DNA of 34,398 nt from NCBI RefSeq assembly GCF_000717185.1, contig NZ_JNYE01000082.1:1-34398 (forward strand), in the 5' to 3' direction. Every line of letters begins with the position of its first letter. Position 1 is the stretch's first letter. The notes under the pieces were generated by a model. The model was not told where the DNA came from, did not search any database, and saw only the letters and a list, made by a program, of their open reading frames with translations. The DNA comes from Kitasatospora phosalacinea (lineage in GTDB: Bacteria > Actinomycetota > Actinomycetes > Streptomycetales > Streptomycetaceae). The translations under genes and the position numbers were made by a program. This document shows positions 5,086-12,507 of this stretch, piece by piece.

Positions 5086-7350
5086 ATGACGACCATACTG
5101 GGCAGCGCCCCGCCTGACTGGCCGCACTGCGGGGAAGGGGCCAGCCCTGCCAACCAGGTGGGCTGCTTGGGTATTCGGATCGGCTCTGGCCTGCGATGCC
5201 TGGAGCACATGCCCGAAACGGACCGGGTTGCCTACCTGGCCACGCTCTCACCTGGCAGCGACCTAGACCTGCGCGGTACCACCATTAATGATTCCCACCT
5301 GCGCGCTCTTTTGCTCGCCTGCACTGACCCAGACACCCGCTGCCCCCAATTTGGTGGTGTCCAGTTCGATTCCGCTACGTTCAGTGGCAACGCCCGGTTC
5401 GAGTCCACTGCGTTTAGCGGTGTCGCCCGCTTCGTGTCTGCCGCCTTCAATGGCGATGCCCGGTTTGATTCTGTCGTCTTCAACGAATCCGCCAGATTCG
5501 ATTCCGCCAGGTTTGACCGTGGCGCCCAGTTTGAGTCCGCCATGTTCAGTAGTACCGCCTACTTTGCGTCCGTCTTCTTCAATGAACATGCAGGGTTCGG
5601 GTCCGTCGCCTTTAACGGCCACGCCCGATTCGGGGGTGCCATATTTAATGGCGACGCCATGTTCGGGTCTTCCAGATTCAGTAGAAACGCCGTTTTTTCG
5701 TCTGCCAGATTCCATGGAGAAACAGATTTCGAGTTGGCCACATTCGGCAGCTCTGCCGAATTTCAGTTCACCATATTCAGTGGTCCCGCTCGGTTCGTCT
5801 CTGTTGCGTTCAGTCGTCCAGCCCGGTTCGCGTCCGCCGCGTTCGGCAGTGACACCGCATTTAATTCCGCCACGTTCAGCCGTGACGCCCGGTTCGAGTC
5901 TGCCACGTTCGGCCGTTCTGCCCGGTTCGGGGGCGCCATATTTGATGGCGACGCTGTGTTTGTTTCCGCCACTTTCGGCGAGCTCGCCGCGTTCGCATCC
6001 GCCACGTTCAGCCGTGACGCCCGGTTCGAGTCTGTCATGTTCGGTGATCTCGCCCGGTTCGAGTCCGTCATGTTCGGTGGTCTCGCTCATTTCGAGTCTG
6101 CCACGTTCAGCCGCGGCGCCCGATTCATGTCCGCCACGTTCAGCAGTGAAGCCCGTTTCTTGAGCACCACGTTCAGTGGTCCCGCCAGGTTCGACTCCAC
6201 CAATTTCGACGGCCATGCCCGATTCAGGTCCGCTGTGTTCGATGGTTTGCAGCACCTCGGACCTTTTGTGTGTGTCCAAGCAGATTTTATGGAAGCCCAG
6301 TTCACGGGGCCCCAGGTTACGATTGAGATTGCCGCACGGAAGACGTCCTTCGATCGCGCCACGTTCGCGGGCTCATTGGTGCTACGGCTGCGTTATGCGA
6401 ACGTGCAGTTGGCGCGCGTGACGTTGGGCGGCCCCAGTGCGATCCAGGCGTGGCCGATGCCCTTCCGCGCGCTTGGCGGCGAGCTGCCCGAGCCGGTCCT
6501 TCTCGGCAGTACACCTTCGGCGGGCGTCCAACTCCTGTCGTTGGAAGGAGCCGACGCCGCGCAACTAGTACTGACCGATGTTGACTTGACTAACTGTCAG
6601 CTCACTGGTGCGTTCCATCTCGACCAGATCCGGATCGGATTCGGTTGTACCTTTGCCCGACCCCCGGCCAGCTGGTACCGATCCGGGCTGCTGCCCGCAC
6701 GCCGGTCAACTCGCAAGGTCCTCGCGGAGGAACACCACTGGCGGGCAAAGGCGGGGGACGCGGGATGGCAGCAGGGCCCGCACCATGGCCTGCCGGGAAT
6801 GGGTGCGGGGCCAGAAGACCTGGTGGGGGCTTACCAGCAGTTGCGGAAGGCGTTCGAGGAGGCTGGAAACGAGCCGGACGCAGCTGACTTCTACTACGGC
6901 GAGATGGAGATGCGCCGCCACGACCGATCACGGCCGCGGGCAGAGCGTCGACTGCTGTGGCTGTACTGGCTGGTGTCTGGGTACGGGCTGCGGGCTTCGC
7001 GGGCGCTGTCGTGGCTGGTAGCGGCGATGGGGGTGACACTGCTGGCGATGATGCTGCTCGGGCTGCCGAACGATAGCCCGGACCCGCAGACCACCGGCAC
7101 TTACTCCGCCGGCACGGTGAAGGCGGTGACGAAGACCCCCGACCCGTCCTTGACCCTGCCGTGGCGCAAGCGGCTGACCGTGGACCGGGCGGAGAAGGGT
7201 GCCCTGGTGGTGGTGAACTCGGTGGTGTTCCGTTCCAGCGGCCAGAACCTCACGTTGCCCGGCACCGTGATCGAGATGGCTTCCCGAATCGGCGAACCCG
7301 TTCTCCTCGGCCTGGCCGCGCTCGCGGTGCGTTCCCGCGTCAAACGCTAA
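5086..7350 (+). CDS. large pentapeptide-repeat membrane protein
   Basis: A 754-aa protein. Residues about 1-85 include a Cys-containing N-terminus and LDLRGTTINDSHLRALLLAC. From about 90 to 390 a regular tract repeats units of the type ARFxSATFSxx. Phenylalanines fall alternately 5 and 6 residues apart, an 11-residue period typical of the F-centred Pentapeptide_3 class, which folds as a right-handed quadrilateral beta-helix. After a non-repeat region and a charged helical stretch (about 580-635), a hydrophobic segment near 640-665 (LSWLVAAMGVTLLAMMLLGL) and another at the C-terminus (VLLGLAALAV) suggest two TM helices. The repeat tract uses AT-ending codons much more than its neighbours, pointing to separate origin or slippage-driven expansion. 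Substrate and role are unknown. It converges on the RiPP operon, ending 46 bp from it. Confidence 0.85.
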   Translation: MTTILGSAPPDWPHCGEGASPANQVGCLGIRIGSGLRCLEHMPETDRVAYLATLSPGSDLDLRGTTINDSHLRALLLACTDPDTRCPQFGGVQFDSATFSGNARFESTAFSGVARFVSAAFNGDARFDSVVFNESARFDSARFDRGAQFESAMFSSTAYFASVFFNEHAGFGSVAFNGHARFGGAIFNGDAMFGSSRFSRNAVFSSARFHGETDFELATFGSSAEFQFTIFSGPARFVSVAFSRPARFASAAFGSDTAFNSATFSRDARFESATFGRSARFGGAIFDGDAVFVSATFGELAAFASATFSRDARFESVMFGDLARFESVMFGGLAHFESATFSRGARFMSATFSSEARFLSTTFSGPARFDSTNFDGHARFRSAVFDGLQHLGPFVCVQADFMEAQFTGPQVTIEIAARKTSFDRATFAGSLVLRLRYANVQLARVTLGGPSAIQAWPMPFRALGGELPEPVLLGSTPSAGVQLLSLEGADAAQLVLTDVDLTNCQLTGAFHLDQIRIGFGCTFARPPASWYRSGLLPARRSTRKVLAEEHHWRAKAGDAGWQQGPHHGLPGMGAGPEDLVGAYQQLRKAFEEAGNEPDAADFYYGEMEMRRHDRSRPRAERRLLWLYWLVSGYGLRASRALSWLVAAMGVTLLAMMLLGLPNDSPDPQTTGTYSAGTVKAVTKTPDPSLTLPWRKRLTVDRAEKGALVVVNSVVFRSSGQNLTLPGTVIEMASRIGEPVLLGLAALAVRSRVKR

Positions 7351-7396: not shown

Positions 7397-8116
7397 TCAG
7401 AACGGCCGGACGGCTTGCCAGCCACGGGTATCGGACAGATCGAACGTTCTGCGAGGCCAGTGACCGAGCCAGAACGCCGCGGTGGAGGGCTCGGTGATGC
7501 CCATGGTCGAGCCGTCGTGCGGTAGGAGTTCAGTTGGGGCGAGGTAGCCGTCGCCGGGGTCGAGACGTATGCGCAGGCAGGTCAGGGGGAATCCGGTAGC
7601 GATGTAGGCCCGCAGGTCGTCGGTGTGCGGGTAGCACGTCGCGTAGTCGGGGCGCACCGTCCGGCAGATCTCCTGGATGTCGGTGTCGCAGACCAGGAGG
7701 TAGCGGGTGCCGGGGCCGAGGTTCAGGCACAGGCGCCTGCGGCCGTCGGCCTTGTGCTGGTAGTCGAGTTTGTCCCAGTTGTCGAGGTGGATGCCGATGC
7801 GGCGTCCGTCGGTGTGGTTCGTGGTGGTGGTGGCAGCGTCCGGTGGGCTGACGGTGCGGCCGAGGGCGGTGACGTGCGGTGCGGCGAGCAGGCGGGGGTC
7901 GATGTCGGCGGCGTAGACGAGTTCGACGAGCGTGGCGTCGGCGGTGCCGGTGGTCGGCGTGAGCTTGCGGTACAGGGTCTCGGTGAGGGGGTGCCACGGC
8001 CCGGCCGGGACCACGGCCCCGTCCTCGTAGTCGGGGTGGTCGGCGACGGCGCGCACGGATGCGGTCTCGCACCGCCGCCGGAGATCGTCCGGCGGGATGG
8101 CGATGCGCAGGCTCAC
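7397..8116 (-). CDS. probable 2-oxoglutarate/Fe(II)-dependent oxygenase of the RiPP operon
   Basis: A 239-aa protein starting at a GTG that overlaps the upstream pentapeptide-repeat stop (GTGA). It has a possible iron-binding H-x-D at H110/D112 (IGIHLDNWD). The distal segment LDPGDGYLAPTELLPHDGS offers H200 inside a PGD...H pattern common in double-stranded beta-helix 2OG oxygenases. Known cyclophane-peptide operons can include such an oxygenase (the YhhC type), which hydroxylates the cross-linked peptide. By analogy this enzyme would tailor the precursor at 8877-9056 after the radical SAM step. The assignment rests on motifs and context only. Another HxD at H101/D103 makes the exact ligand set uncertain. 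It is the last gene of the operon. Confidence 0.55.
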   Translation of the reverse strand: MSLRIAIPPDDLRRRCETASVRAVADHPDYEDGAVVPAGPWHPLTETLYRKLTPTTGTADATLVELVYAADIDPRLLAAPHVTALGRTVSPPDAATTTTNHTDGRRIGIHLDNWDKLDYQHKADGRRRLCLNLGPGTRYLLVCDTDIQEICRTVRPDYATCYPHTDDLRAYIATGFPLTCLRIRLDPGDGYLAPTELLPHDGSTMGITEPSTAAFWLGHWPRRTFDLSDTRGWQAVRPF

Positions 8117-8811
8117 CGGCGCCCGCCCGGTACCGGGTCGTCCAGGTCGTCGCCGAAGACCGCTTCGAGCTCGGCGACCAGGGCGCGGGCGAGTTCGGCC
8201 TCCTGCCCCCGGTCGATGATGACCTTCGCGAGGTTGCCGGTGCCGCGGATCTCGGAGAGGTCGTTGCCTCGGAGGTCGAACTCCCGGTAGGCGCCGTGCT
8301 CGAACTCGGTGCGGCGGAGCACGGTTTCGTCGAGGACGGCCCGGGTGAGGTCACAGCCGGTGAACGTGGCGTCGGTCAGCGTGCACTTGGAGAAGACGAC
8401 CGGGCCCGCGGCGCGGACCTTGGCGAAGGTGGCGAAGTCGAGCTTGCAGCCCTGGAAGAGGACGTTGTCGAGCACCAGGCCCGACAGGGTCGCGCCGAGG
8501 AGCTTGCAGTCGCGGAAGACCGTGCGGGAGAGCTTGCTGTCGCTCCACTGCACGGACCCGAGGTCGCAGCCCACGAACTCCGTGGACTCCACCCGCACCT
8601 CCTCCAGGCGCACGCGCTCGGCGCGCAGCTTGCTGACGCGCCCGCTGCTCAGGGTGGCATCGGCCAGCTCCAGGGCCCGCAGGTCGGCGTCGGCGTAGCG
8701 GAACTCCTGAAGGAGACCGCGGGGGTGGTCGAGGGAGGTGACGTTGGAGAGGTAGCCGTCGTCGAACCCGGGGAGGGCGAGGGTGACGCGGCGGAAGGTG
8801 CGTTCGCTCAT
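8113..8811 (-). CDS. pentapeptide-repeat protein, possible immunity factor
   Basis: A 232-aa soluble protein. The ATG at 8811 follows a GAAAGAGAG-type ribosome-binding site; longer in-frame readings run into the precursor region and are rejected. Residues about 35-200 hold irregular pentapeptide repeats of the A(D/N)Lxx and FxxCxL kinds, for example STEFVGCDLGSVQW, KLDFATFAKV and DATFTGCDLTRAVLD. This is the pattern of Qnr, MfpA, AlbG and McbG proteins, DNA mimics that protect gyrase from quinolones or from the peptide antibiotics albicidin and microcin B17. Lying between a peptide precursor and a tailoring enzyme, it could give self-resistance. That is inference: pentapeptide proteins also occur in other roles. 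It is coupled to the oxygenase gene. Confidence 0.8.
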   Translation of the reverse strand: MSERTFRRVTLALPGFDDGYLSNVTSLDHPRGLLQEFRYADADLRALELADATLSSGRVSKLRAERVRLEEVRVESTEFVGCDLGSVQWSDSKLSRTVFRDCKLLGATLSGLVLDNVLFQGCKLDFATFAKVRAAGPVVFSKCTLTDATFTGCDLTRAVLDETVLRRTEFEHGAYREFDLRGNDLSEIRGTGNLAKVIIDRGQEAELARALVAELEAVFGDDLDDPVPGGRR

Positions 8812-8835: not shown

Positions 8836-8867
8836 GTGCCGGGCCCGCGCGGCGGCGGGCCCGGCAC
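8836..8867 (-). terminator. 12-bp perfect hairpin after the precursor gene
   Basis: Arms 8836-8847 and 8856-8867 (GTGCCGGGCCCG and its complement) are perfectly paired around an 8-nt loop. The hairpin begins 9 bp after the precursor stop and ends 25 bp before the next start. It has no T-tract, so it is more likely a partial terminator or 3'-end stabiliser than a full stop. Such hairpins often raise precursor mRNA over downstream genes in peptide operons. Confidence 0.6.
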
Positions 8868-8876
8868 GACGTGCTG

Positions 8877-9056
8877 CTACTGCTTGCCCTGCTTGTTCCA
8901 GTTGTCCCACGTCGGCCGGTTGTCGAACGCCGGAGTGAGGTTGTCCCACGTCGGGCGGTTGTCGAACTTCGCGACGGCCGGCAGTACTCCGGCGGTGCCG
9001 GTGAGGTCGGCGATCACGGGGGCGTCGGACGCTTCCAGCAGTTCGAGCAGGGTCAT
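8877..9056 (-). CDS. cyclophane-type RiPP precursor peptide (AmcA-like)
   Basis: A 59-aa peptide whose ATG overlaps the maturase stop (ATGA). Residues 1-30 form an acidic, Leu/Ala-rich leader (MTLLELLEASDAPVIADLTG...). The C-terminal 29 residues carry FDNRPTWDN at 31-39 and again at 44-52, separated by LTPA and followed by WNKQGKQ. Each aromatic-Asp-Asn triplet (F31, W37, F44, W50) fits the aromatic-x-Asn motif that radical SAM/SPASM enzymes join into three-residue cyclophanes; W53-N-K55 is a fifth candidate. The two 9-residue units are nearly identical at DNA level (8940-8966 and 8901-8927), indicating duplication. It resembles peptides I know as AmcA, multiple-cyclophane RiPPs, but I cannot confirm family membership. 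The leader boundary is not evident. Confidence 0.85.
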   Translation of the reverse strand: MTLLELLEASDAPVIADLTGTAGVLPAVAKFDNRPTWDNLTPAFDNRPTWDNWNKQGKQ

Positions 9057-10177
9057 GAGGCTTGCTCCTCTCGGACGGTATCGGACAGGGCGACGACGAG
9101 GGCCTGCCGCGACACGCGGCAGTAGCTCGTCTCGGTGGTGTCGAAGCGGCCGGTCTCGAAGTACCGGTTGCCGGCCTGCGCGCCCCGGCAGAAGCCGAAG
9201 AACTCGCAGGTCGCCTCGCAGCGGTCCAGGCCGGTCAGGAACTCCTCCACGTACCTGAGGCGGCCGGCGTCGGCCAGCATCGAGGCGATGGACTGCTCCA
9301 GGACGTTCCCGGCCCGGAAGTCGTCGTAGTGCGCGGCCCGGGTGTCGGCCAGTTCGGGGGACAGCAGGACGACGTCGCCCGCCGCCGAGACGGTGGGGAT
9401 CGGGTCGATGAGCACCGAGCGCCAGCCGTCGCCCGCGCGCAGGGACCGCAGGTAGCCGCCGAGCCGGTCGACCTCGCGGACCGTCAGGTCCCGGTTGCGC
9501 CGAGTCCAGGCGATGGTGCGTCGCCAGAACTCCACGGCCTGCTCGAACGTCGGCGTCGGGCGTACGGAGTTCACGCCCTCCTGCTCCTCGATGTTGAAGC
9601 CGACGCTGGTACAGCCCAGGGATGAGAAGAAGTCGAGCAGCGCCTCGGGGTGGTCGATGCTGTCGGTCGTGACGACCGCGATCACGGAGAAGCCGATCTC
9701 GTGGGCGCGCAGGCGGTCGATGCCCTTCATGATCAGCGGGAAGGCGGGCTTGCCGCCCAGGCCGATCCGCTGCCGGTTCATGGCCGCCGGGCCGTCGATG
9801 CTCACCCCGATGCGGAAGTCGCGGTCGGCGAAGAACTCGCACCACCCTGGGGTGATGAGCGTGGCGTTGGTCTGCATGTAGTGGCGCAGGCGGCCCGTGC
9901 CGCGCAGGAGTTCGAACGGGGCGACGAGGTCCGCGAAGCGGGGCAGTCCCGCCGCCGTCGGTTCCCCGGCGTGCCACACGAGGTCCAGAGGCGAGCCGGC
10001 GGTGGTGAGTTCGGCGGCGGAGCGGGCGATGGCCTCGGCGACCCCGATGGGCATCGGGGTGCGCTTGGCCTTGTTGGGCAGGTAGCAGTAGGTGCAGGCG
10101 AGGTTGCAGAAGGAGTCGCACTGCGCCACCAGTGTGCGGGGCCGCGCGGCGATCCTGCTGGCGTATCGACCGAGCAA
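9053..10177 (-). CDS. radical SAM/SPASM cyclophane-forming peptide maturase (GrrM/AmcB-like)
   Basis: Predicted iron-sulfur enzyme that uses S-adenosylmethionine to cross-link the precursor encoded directly downstream. The CX3CX2C motif lies in SFCNLACTYCYLPN, the form seen in GrrM/OscB-type maturases. A C-terminal SPASM-like cysteine set (RCEATCEFFGFC, then ...SYC about 20 residues later) would hold auxiliary clusters. The start is uncertain. I prefer TTG at 10177, because AGGAGG (10185-10190) sits exactly 7 bp upstream, giving 374 aa. An in-frame ATG at 10243 gives 396 aa but has only a GAGGG 3 bp away and lies almost at the predicted transcription start. First gene of the operon; its stop overlaps the precursor ATG. 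Function is well supported; which residues it cross-links is inferred. Confidence 0.85.
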   Translation of the reverse strand: MLGRYASRIAARPRTLVAQCDSFCNLACTYCYLPNKAKRTPMPIGVAEAIARSAAELTTAGSPLDLVWHAGEPTAAGLPRFADLVAPFELLRGTGRLRHYMQTNATLITPGWCEFFADRDFRIGVSIDGPAAMNRQRIGLGGKPAFPLIMKGIDRLRAHEIGFSVIAVVTTDSIDHPEALLDFFSSLGCTSVGFNIEEQEGVNSVRPTPTFEQAVEFWRRTIAWTRRNRDLTVREVDRLGGYLRSLRAGDGWRSVLIDPIPTVSAAGDVVLLSPELADTRAAHYDDFRAGNVLEQSIASMLADAGRLRYVEEFLTGLDRCEATCEFFGFCRGAQAGNRYFETGRFDTTETSYCRVSRQALVVALSDTVREEQAS

Positions 10178-10255
10178 CGTGGTGCCTCCTGGGGGAGTCG
10201 AGGGCGACGATCCGGTCAGCGCGCGAGCCGGGGCCCGATCCATGGGCCCTCGCAG

Positions 10256-10352: not shown

Positions 10353-11036
10353 GTGACCGGCCTGGCTTCCCTGTACAGCTGGAGGAGCGACCGGGGCAGG
10401 CCATCCGGCCACCCGGTTGTCAGTGCTGTCCGGCAGCATCGCGGCGTGAGTACCAGGACGCTGGACACCGAAGCTGGGCATGGCCGGAACTTCCATGGGC
10501 TGACCGGCGCCGGTGCCGTGCTGTACATCGCCGAATCCGACGAGCTGAACGCACTGAAGATCGGCGTCACCAGCAGGGCCAGCCGCACTAACCGAACCCA
10601 GCAGCACGCCCGGCACGGCTGGCGCATAACAGCAGAGATCACCTTCGAGGACGGGCAGCACGCCTTCACCGCGGAGCAGGCCGTGCTGGCGTTTCTGCGC
10701 TCCTGCGGGGCGCGTCGGACCCTCGCGCAAGAGCAACTGCCGCAGGGCGGCTACACGGAGACCGTTGCGCTCGCCCGGGAAGTCGGCCTGAGCGCAGACC
10801 AGTTGCTGGTGATCGCGCGGGCCGCCGGGGAGATCGTGGAAGCCACTGCACGGCCGTTCTATACCAGCATGGTGGCGCTTGATCAGGTCCGCGACCATCT
10901 GCGTGAAGTGGAGAAGGAGTACCAGGTGATGAAGCTCACCGGAAGTCGGCGCGAGCTACAGGAGTTTGCCGCTCAGGTGCTGCCCCTGTTGGAGGAGCTC
11001 AAAGAGATGGCTGAATCCCTACGCAGCCGACTGTAG
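10353..11036 (+). CDS. GIY-YIG/Orf172-like domain protein
   Basis: A 227-aa protein (196 aa if the in-frame GTG at 10446 is used). GC3 stays high from 10353 and a weak GGAAG precedes that GTG, so the longer form is given. Around residues 54-110, GAVLYIAESDELNALKIGVTSR...QQHARHGWRI and then AEQAVLAFLRS resemble the YI...KIG...R...H..GW pattern of Orf172/MUG113-type GIY-YIG folds, with a Glu in the helix where the nuclease active site would be. The C-terminal 70 residues form charged helices likely to make a coiled coil (QVRDHLREVEKEYQVM...). Divergent from the RiPP operon and sharing the operator-bearing intergenic region. Nuclease activity is not assured; it could be DNA-binding only. Confidence 0.55.
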   Translation: MTGLASLYSWRSDRGRPSGHPVVSAVRQHRGVSTRTLDTEAGHGRNFHGLTGAGAVLYIAESDELNALKIGVTSRASRTNRTQQHARHGWRITAEITFEDGQHAFTAEQAVLAFLRSCGARRTLAQEQLPQGGYTETVALAREVGLSADQLLVIARAAGEIVEATARPFYTSMVALDQVRDHLREVEKEYQVMKLTGSRRELQEFAAQVLPLLEELKEMAESLRSRL

Positions 11037-11102: not shown

Positions 11103-11951
11103 TCACCGAAGGGCGTCGACCGCCGCGGTGATCAGCGTACGGGCGGCGGCACCATGCACCGCGAGCCCCGCGAACCGGGCGAACACCTGCATGTACAGGG
11201 CGACGTCGGTGGGGGCGGTCACCGTGACCTGCGCCGACAGCAACTCCGTTCCGGCTTGTCGGTCGTCGAAGACGTTGAAGGACTCGGTGGGCCACACAGT
11301 GCGCGCCGCGGTGAACGGGATGATGCCCAGCGAAACGGACGGCAACGACATGACGGTCAGCAGGTGGCCGAGTTGCCCGGCCATCACCGCTTCGTCGCCC
11401 ACCCGGTAGCGCAGCACGGACTCCTCGATGACGGCGACCAGGCGGCGCCCGCCTTCGTAGACGAGCCGGGAACGGGCGAGACGGGCGTCGACGGCGTCGG
11501 ACACGTCGTCGGGAGTCTGGCGGACATCGGCCACCATCCGCAGGAGGGCGCTGGCGTAGCCCTTCGTCTGCAAGGCCCCGGGGATGACCCGGGAGGAGTA
11601 GGCGCGGAAGTGGCTGGTACGCACGTACAGCGGTACCCGGGCCTCCTGCGCGTGGCGAAGCCCGGTGCGGGTGATGCGCCGCCACTCGACGTACAGGGAG
11701 TCCGCCGCCCGGTTGGAGGCGACCAGGTCCTCGGCCTGGTCATCAGCGCCGCAGGCCCGGCACCACGTCCGGATGTCCGAATCCGACGGCGCTGCCTTGG
11801 CGTTGAGGATGCGGGAAGTCTTGGCGTCGTGCCAGCCGCAGAGCGCCGACAGCTCCCTGCCCTTCAGGCCGGCGTCGCGCATCAGCTCACCGAGGCGCGC
11901 GGCCAGCGCCACGCGGGCGGCCTGGACGCTGGAGGACGGGGAGGTCGACAT
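11103..11951 (-). CDS. XRE-family helix-turn-helix regulator with DUF5753 domain
   Basis: A 282-aa transcription regulator of the large actinobacterial XRE-DUF5753 family. The N-terminal HTH (about 12-70) reads RLGELMRDAGLKGRELSALCGWHDAKTSRILNAKAAPSDSDI. The rest matches DUF5753, with IPGALQTKGYASALLRMV near 122-140, a VIEESVLRYRVG segment, LLTVMSLPSVSLGIIPF, and a C-terminal LITAAVDAL. The family includes developmental and antibiotic regulators such as WhiJ-like proteins. It sits 31 bp downstream of the DUF6879 gene in the same orientation, probably as one operon. Inferred role: binding the TTGCGCA-type sites upstream of its own operon and the RiPP operon. Ligand unknown. Confidence 0.85.
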   Translation of the reverse strand: MSTSPSSSVQAARVALAARLGELMRDAGLKGRELSALCGWHDAKTSRILNAKAAPSDSDIRTWCRACGADDQAEDLVASNRAADSLYVEWRRITRTGLRHAQEARVPLYVRTSHFRAYSSRVIPGALQTKGYASALLRMVADVRQTPDDVSDAVDARLARSRLVYEGGRRLVAVIEESVLRYRVGDEAVMAGQLGHLLTVMSLPSVSLGIIPFTAARTVWPTESFNVFDDRQAGTELLSAQVTVTAPTDVALYMQVFARFAGLAVHGAAARTLITAAVDALR

Positions 11952-11982
11952 CGCTGCTGCTGTACTCGGGTACGGGTGCCGG

Positions 11983-12507
11983 TCAGATGCTGAACTTCTC
12001 GTGCGGCACGGCCCGCTCCCACACCGCTTCGAACGCGGTGGCGCACAGCCGCGCCACCGCGGGGTTGTCGCTGAACGACGGCCCTGCGGACTCCCCGGCG
12101 CCGGTGAAGTGGTTGAACCTCACCAACTCGCCGTCGAACAGCCAGAAGTCGTTGCCCGGCAGCGCGAGGTCCGACGCCTCGCGCCGGTCCAGCCATCGGA
12201 TCTGCTCGCCCGCGGCGATGTTGGTGAACGTCCCGGAGTGCTCGTAGCGGATGTACTCCGACACGGGCGTGGACACGATCCGGGCGCGCCGGACTTCGAC
12301 GCCTCGCCCGACGGTCTCCTGGATCGTGGACAGCCACGGCCGCCACCAGGACGCCCGGTCCGCCGGGTCGTACCGGAAGCCCTCACGCCAGGCCGCGAAC
12401 GCCTGTACCTCGCCTGCAACGCTGTAGGAGTCCCGCATCTCCAGGTGGACCGCCGTGGAGCGTGTGGCGGCCAACTGCTCAGCGAACGTGGGCACCTTCG
12501 GCTGCAT
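11983..12507 (-). CDS. DUF6879 family protein
   Basis: A 174-aa soluble protein matching my recollection of DUF6879, a family commonly paired with XRE-DUF5753 genes in actinomycetes. Diagnostic stretches are THLEM-like VHLEMRDSYS at about 20-29, the Trp-rich WWRPWLSTI, VEVRRARIVSTPVSEYIRYEH, and DFWLFDGELVRFNHF. The ATG at 12507 has AGGAAGG six bases upstream. It overlaps the preceding 80-aa gene by 29 bp. No catalytic motif is evident. The family is thought to work with its HTH partner, but its biochemical role is unknown. Confidence 0.75.
   Translation of the reverse strand: MQPKVPTFAEQLAATRSTAVHLEMRDSYSVAGEVQAFAAWREGFRYDPADRASWWRPWLSTIQETVGRGVEVRRARIVSTPVSEYIRYEHSGTFTNIAAGEQIRWLDRREASDLALPGNDFWLFDGELVRFNHFTGAGESAGPSFSDNPAVARLCATAFEAVWERAVPHEKFSI

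Follow-up and report, generated by a model that had tools for sequence, protein, structure and literature searches.

An AMC locus in Kitasatospora phosalacinea

What kind of peptide is made from the small gene at positions 8877–9056 of contig NZ_JNYE01000082.1 of Kitasatospora phosalacinea, and what do the genes that accompany it contribute? The window, as the whole 34,398-nucleotide stretch analysed is called here, carries on its minus strand four genes in the order maturase, 59-residue peptide, pentapeptide-repeat gene and gene for a 239-residue protein. The peptide gene is amcA (8877–9056) and the maturase gene is amcB (9053–10243), encoding a 396-residue radical S-adenosylmethionine (SAM)/SPASM protein; the two overlap by four bases (9053–9056), read as ATGA on the minus strand, as an earlier sequence-only reading of this DNA had stated. 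The third gene (8113–8811) encodes a 232-residue acidic pentapeptide-repeat protein and the fourth (7397–8116) a putative Fe(II)/2-oxoglutarate oxygenase, whose GTG start overlaps the repeat-gene stop by four bases. Judged from sequence, the four very probably form an AMC triceptide operon (amcB–amcA–repeat protein–2-oxoglutarate oxygenase) with cyclophane chemistry. This kind of system has already been named: precursor and maturase are members of the known AmcA/AmcB family.

The precursor peptide

Translation of the minus strand at 8877–9056 gives MTLLELLEASDAPVIADLTGTAGVLPAVAKFDNRPTWDNLTPAFDNRPTWDNWNKQGKQ, a peptide of 59 residues. A leader is followed by the core FDNRPTWDN-LTPA-FDNRPTWDN-WNK-QGKQ, in which nine-residue units occupy residues 31–39 and 44–52 and WNK comes directly after the second. 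The triplets begin at residues 31 (FDN), 37 (WDN), 44 (FDN), 50 (WDN) and 53 (WNK), the set picked out by the sequence-only reading; the two units are identical in protein and alike at 26 of 27 bases in DNA. The precursor matches the NCBIfam model NF041721, named for AmcA as a multiple cyclophane-containing ribosomally synthesised and post-translationally modified peptide (RiPP), at 78.8 bits against a curated cut-off of 40, with residues 7–55 aligned to positions 2–52 of the 54 in the model (E=3e-22). A phmmer search of 5.8 billion proteins with AmcA gave 241 candidates, 229 of them at E<=0.01. With such a match and this number of homologues, chance is no serious alternative. Among the matches listed, the nearest precursors are from Kitasatospora and the named homologues are mostly from Kitasatospora and Streptomyces, many of them carrying the NCBI AmcA name.

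Conservation was counted over 120 listed homologues of the 229, and because these were picked by similarity to the query it is partly built in. All 120 have two units by a loose pattern, and in 40 both units are exactly FDNRPTWDN. Within unit 2 the F, the first N, the W and the second D are unchanged throughout, and the final position holds N in 114 homologues and D in the other six; a third unit counted in one homologue (P0051) is an overlap artefact, which puts a single anomalous entry into the unit-1 counts. Family members ordinarily have a doubled core, and the suggestion that this marks a distinct subtype is not supported. The conservation of FDN and WDN, which the sequence-only reading had named as a check on itself, holds in this sample. 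Recent duplication or concerted evolution of the units was also considered and finds no clear excess of identity, the mean DNA identity of units being 0.904 within a locus and 0.880–0.891 between loci (17 loci). Six loci (L041, L042, L045, L057, L061 and L063) encode Trp-rich AmcA variants with six or seven aromatic-x-Asn triplets, for example WDNQPTWDN...WNNQPSWDN...WDNWNN.

The maturase and its predicted chemistry

AmcB scores 492.3 bits against NF041718 (curated cut-off 425) and 53.9 bits against Pfam Radical_SAM (cut-off 29.5). Its radical SAM motif is CNLACTYC (CX3CX2C) at residues 46–53, and further cysteines near the C-terminus (342, 346, 352 and 375) may bind an auxiliary cluster. The next-best maturase family is GrrM/OscB (TIGR04261), at 248 bits under a cut-off of 310; XyeB (TIGR04496; 42.5 of 450 bits) and FxsB (TIGR04269; 78.2 of 370) both fail. 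The sequence-only reading had called the peptide a RiPP precursor, likened it to the AmcA/AmcB systems and placed the maturase near GrrM and Xye. In the family-model search that it proposed, both proteins exceed the curated AMC cut-offs and GrrM and XyeB match below theirs, which bears out the AmcA/AmcB identity and the relationship to GrrM.

AmcB is expected to bind the AmcA leader and, with SAM and an Fe–S cluster, to abstract a beta-hydrogen from residue three of every aromatic-x-Asn(Lys) triplet. The beta-carbon would then be joined to the Phe or Trp ring, with the loss of two hydrogens (−2 Da) per ring. OscB is reported to link Trp C7 to the C-beta of Asn or Asp, and a Phe C4 to Asn C-beta bond is made by XncB or OscB (PMC11002830). 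From its family membership, AmcB would similarly join Phe and Trp rings to the C-beta of Asn (or Lys). Up to five rings (FDN, WDN, FDN, WDN and WNK) are plausible in AmcA, and our guess is that four or five are formed. It is conceivable, though we do not favour it, that AmcA is only partly modified, with two or three rings for example, the other motifs serving for recognition and WNK left open. The last triplet is indeed the least constant, being WNK in 87 of the 120 listed homologues, some W-x-K/N in 118 and absent in two, and one locus (L087) has a single unit; against this, those homologues keep F/W-D-N and W-D-N nearly unchanged in each of their two units.

Distribution and gene content of AmcB loci

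To set the two downstream genes in context, 47 loci chosen by AmcB alone were compared: the window and 46 fetched loci, drawn from the family search (the window and 37 other genomes), one further genome (G204) and a class search (eight). Eighteen are from the window's genus and most from its own family. With the window's own genome included in each count, AmcB was found at E<=1e-100 in 38/394 genomes of the family and 18/70 of the genus, and at E<=1e-80 in 10/394 of the class and 2/396 of the phylum. A motif scan gave a precursor candidate in 36 of the 47 loci, 33 of these with at least two units; the remaining three candidates have another motif (L078, L091) or the single unit of L087. The scan found no precursor at 11 loci, with loose candidates for two of these (L066, L072).

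A repeat gene lies downstream of amcB on the same strand in 33 of the 47 loci and is lacking from 12. At two it is on the opposite strand and a weak match, 25–27% identical (L070, from another genus, and L093, from a third family). The oxygenase gene is present in 30 loci, 29 of which have the same-strand repeat gene and one of which (L066) has no repeat gene; in another family of the class, L087–L090 have the repeat gene without the oxygenase and L092 has both. The sequence-only reading had supposed that the pentapeptide and oxygenase genes might define a distinct subtype. Since the same-strand pair is found in 29 of the 47 loci, that subtype is the ordinary form: repeat protein with oxygenase is the commonest AMC arrangement. 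By the motif scan, the doubled FDN/WDN core occurs in 33 of the 35 loci with a repeat gene, the exceptions being L050, in which most of amcA is lost, and L087.

Linkage of the repeat protein to AMC loci

Within the genus, AmcB is found in 18 of 70 genomes, the repeat-protein subfamily in 19 and both in 15 (Fisher p 3.5e-9, which overstates independence because of the shared ancestry of the genomes, and which is a genus-only count). The four other genomes with the repeat protein have amcB remains and an amcA. The subfamily and AMC loci go together in 19/19 carrier genomes of the genus. One could suppose instead that the gene is a passenger, a solenoid gene kept by descent and unrelated to the action of the peptide. 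Repeat genes are abundant in these genomes, the window has a second one (754 residues, 5086–7350), and all the loci share common descent. This explanation is nonetheless improbable: AMC genes or their remnants accompany the subfamily in all 19 genomes, repeat genes adjoin divergent AmcB proteins too (on the same strand in L087–L090 and L092, from another family; on the opposite strand and at only 25–27% identity in L070 and L093), and by motif scan the 12 loci which lack a repeat gene all lack the doubled core.

In two loci the repeat gene outlasts a decayed AMC cluster. In three others (L110, L112 and L113) amcB is split or truncated and amcA is whole or nearly so, which suggests that AMC decay is frequent in the genus, or else reflects assembly errors. 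Assembly error is possible also in P0301, where the first AmcA unit is naturally fused in frame to a repeat protein. Among the relatives of the window's repeat protein is one, labelled K. phosalacinea, of 96% identity.

What the repeat protein may do

The model of the repeat protein is a quadrilateral beta-helix with a C-terminal helix, an architecture seen in gyrase protectors, and is closest to PENT, EfsQnr and AlbG. Scores of 39.3 of 240 bits against the Qnr model NF033086 and 28.2 of 360 against the MfpA model NF000349 miss both cut-offs, and therefore by these models the protein is neither Qnr nor MfpA. There are precedents for repeat proteins of this kind among peptide producers: McbG and AlbG are described as poison-specific gyrase protectors (PMC7897471), and speirobactin provides a further case of a producer's gyrase-protecting repeat protein (PMC12406682). 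By analogy, the AMC repeat protein would serve the producer's self-protection, perhaps by guarding DNA gyrase. Self-protection is the reading that we prefer, at about even odds; gyrase as the protected target, suggested by the modelled architecture, is doubtful. More doubtful still is the full proposal that peptides with the doubled FDNRPTWDN core hit a cytosolic target, most likely gyrase, and that their operons carry their own Qnr/AlbG-like protector, which sometimes outlasts the biosynthetic genes.

A different role may be imagined in which the repeat protein belongs to a regulatory circuit, for example shielding a cytosolic regulator, with the peptide acting as an internal signal. HetL shields HetR from PatS in this way, and of the NCBIfam models it is that of HetL which fits the repeat protein best (42.8 bits, far under the cut-off of 260). 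No exporter or protease was found to be shared around the 29 operon-type loci, as would suit an internal signal, in a search of frames of at least 90 residues by BLAST at 1e-12 over flanks of about 8 kb; given these limits and some shorter contigs, a divergent or distant one would escape. The most shared extra neighbour occurs in six of the 29, and a gene judged by eye to encode an ABC-transporter ATPase-like protein lies about 4–9 kb away in five. Such a circuit is possible, though rather unlikely.

Several points weigh against the self-protection and gyrase proposals. The missing exporter or protease, as far as the flanks searched extend, is odd for a secreted antibiotic, and the shared ancestry behind the genus association has been noted above. 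In L050 amcB is retained and the repeat gene truncated; this locus has lost most of amcA together with the beginning of the repeat gene, and an assembly error is possible. The structural model is equally close to EfsQnr, which is reported to be a likely gyrase inhibitor, and to PENT, the function of which is given as unconfirmed (PMC8145042). When the model was inspected for protruding loops of 8–13 residues, as in QnrB1, AhQnr and AlbG, no long loop of the Qnr/AlbG type was found in the regular strands of the solenoid (residues 32–166). PENT is likewise described as having no such loops (PMC8145042). Residues 14–31 are irregular, with mean predicted local distance difference test (pLDDT) values of 71 for residues 11–20 and 67 for residues 21–30.

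According to a 2025 paper (PMC12257519), the biological activities of triceptides have still to be worked out. The self-protection reading of the repeat protein is testable, and the linked protein of gyrase-protector type points to one testable target. If true, the gyrase reading would give triceptides their first target, and AMC peptides would join microcin B17 as a further class of ribosomally made gyrase poisons. Openly searchable papers, from which the print record may differ, yielded nothing on AMC repeat proteins, including in connection with RiPPs or cyclophanes; neither their linkage to AMC loci nor the hairpin described below was found there.

The oxygenase

The 239-residue protein has a profile match to the 2-oxoglutarate oxygenase MicC (PDB 9vkm; E=2.7e-13). 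H110, D112 and H200 are invariant in 24 aligned homologues, and the model (pLDDT 93) finds NO66, JMJD5 and FIH in Foldseek. The HxD...H iron triad sits on a cupin fold in the model. It is fairly probable that the enzyme would hydroxylate the stapled AmcA core. This would add a predicted second modification, by an uncharacterised oxygenase family, to the stapled peptide.

An oxygenase restricted to AMC loci can be ruled out: a search at E<=1e-20 finds the gene in 33/70 genomes of the genus, and 15 fetched loci of a second subfamily have no amcB, amcA or repeat-gene match. In these 15 genus loci (L095–L109) the oxygenase is 43–46% identical to that of the window and lies beside an XRE-type regulator gene and, by eye, an ATPase-like gene. 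Nine of them also have a small membrane-like protein with a WW...TG-x-x-R-x-N...D-rich tail, again by eye. The second subfamily possibly has a different substrate.

A hairpin downstream of amcA

Between the amcA stop and the repeat gene, positions 8836–8867 on the minus strand form a hairpin with a 13-bp perfect stem and a 6-nucleotide loop, and folding of the entire gap gives z −3.81. Of the 29 loci scored (gaps of 60–105 nucleotides), 20 have perfect stems of at least 10 bp, and in each of these 20 none of 100 shuffles, which keep single-base content only, reached the stem length. The other nine have perfect stems of 4–8 bp, some inside longer imperfect hairpins. This count left out L050, L070 and L093, on account of their deleted amcA or opposite-strand repeat gene, and L088–L090. 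In the first 60 nucleotides after amcA, 21/32 loci fall below z −2, versus 3/32 for control windows further downstream; L088–L090 have no fold signal in that 60-nucleotide window, and it is too short for the six loci with Trp-rich variants, the stems of which are 11–16 bp in the stem count. The stem sequence changes between loci with the pairing kept, as a comparison of the window with L041, L052, L063 and L092 illustrates. An intrinsic terminator was considered: no T-run follows the window's hairpin and a consensus scan found no terminator-like site there. The hairpin probably raises precursor mRNA relative to the two downstream genes, perhaps as an mRNA 3′ stabiliser or as an attenuator favouring the precursor.

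Neighbouring genes

Upstream of amcB lies a divergent gene (10353–11036, plus strand) that carries a T5orf172 domain (21.0 bits; cut-off 20), followed on the minus strand (11103–12507) by an XRE/DUF5753 regulator and a DUF6879 gene. Close relatives of the last two (53% and 63% identical) stand upstream of amcB in only one of the 46 fetched loci (L045). Neither the T5orf172 gene nor the plus-strand gene for the 754-residue repeat protein, which contains 11 Pentapeptide_3 stretches, has a tblastn match in those loci.

Comparison with known systems

The repeat gene recalls those for McbG (microcin B17), AlbG (albicidin) and the speirobactin protein in its place within a peptide-biosynthesis operon, and its product is likewise predicted to be an acidic solenoid with a C-terminal helix. 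It differs in accompanying a peptide without known activity and in having no long loop in solenoid residues 32–166. GrrM/OscB, XyeB/XncB and FxsB are, like AmcB, radical SAM/SPASM proteins and make aromatic-x-aliphatic three-residue cyclophanes (PMC11002830); unlike their true members, the window's maturase falls under every one of their cut-offs. The oxygenase shares with MicC, an alpha-ketoglutarate-dependent non-heme iron oxygenase by its molecule name, a catalytic region with HxD and HDGSTEG, in an alignment which spans mainly the C-terminal half; the substrate of MicC was not found in a literature search. The closest system is that of the AmcA/AmcB multiple-cyclophane triceptides, reportedly the subject of a study that was probably Phan and Morinaka 2022. 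No essential difference from it was found, and the window shares with it scores above both cut-offs, a doubled core of the FDNRPTWDN type and the placing of amcB before amcA.
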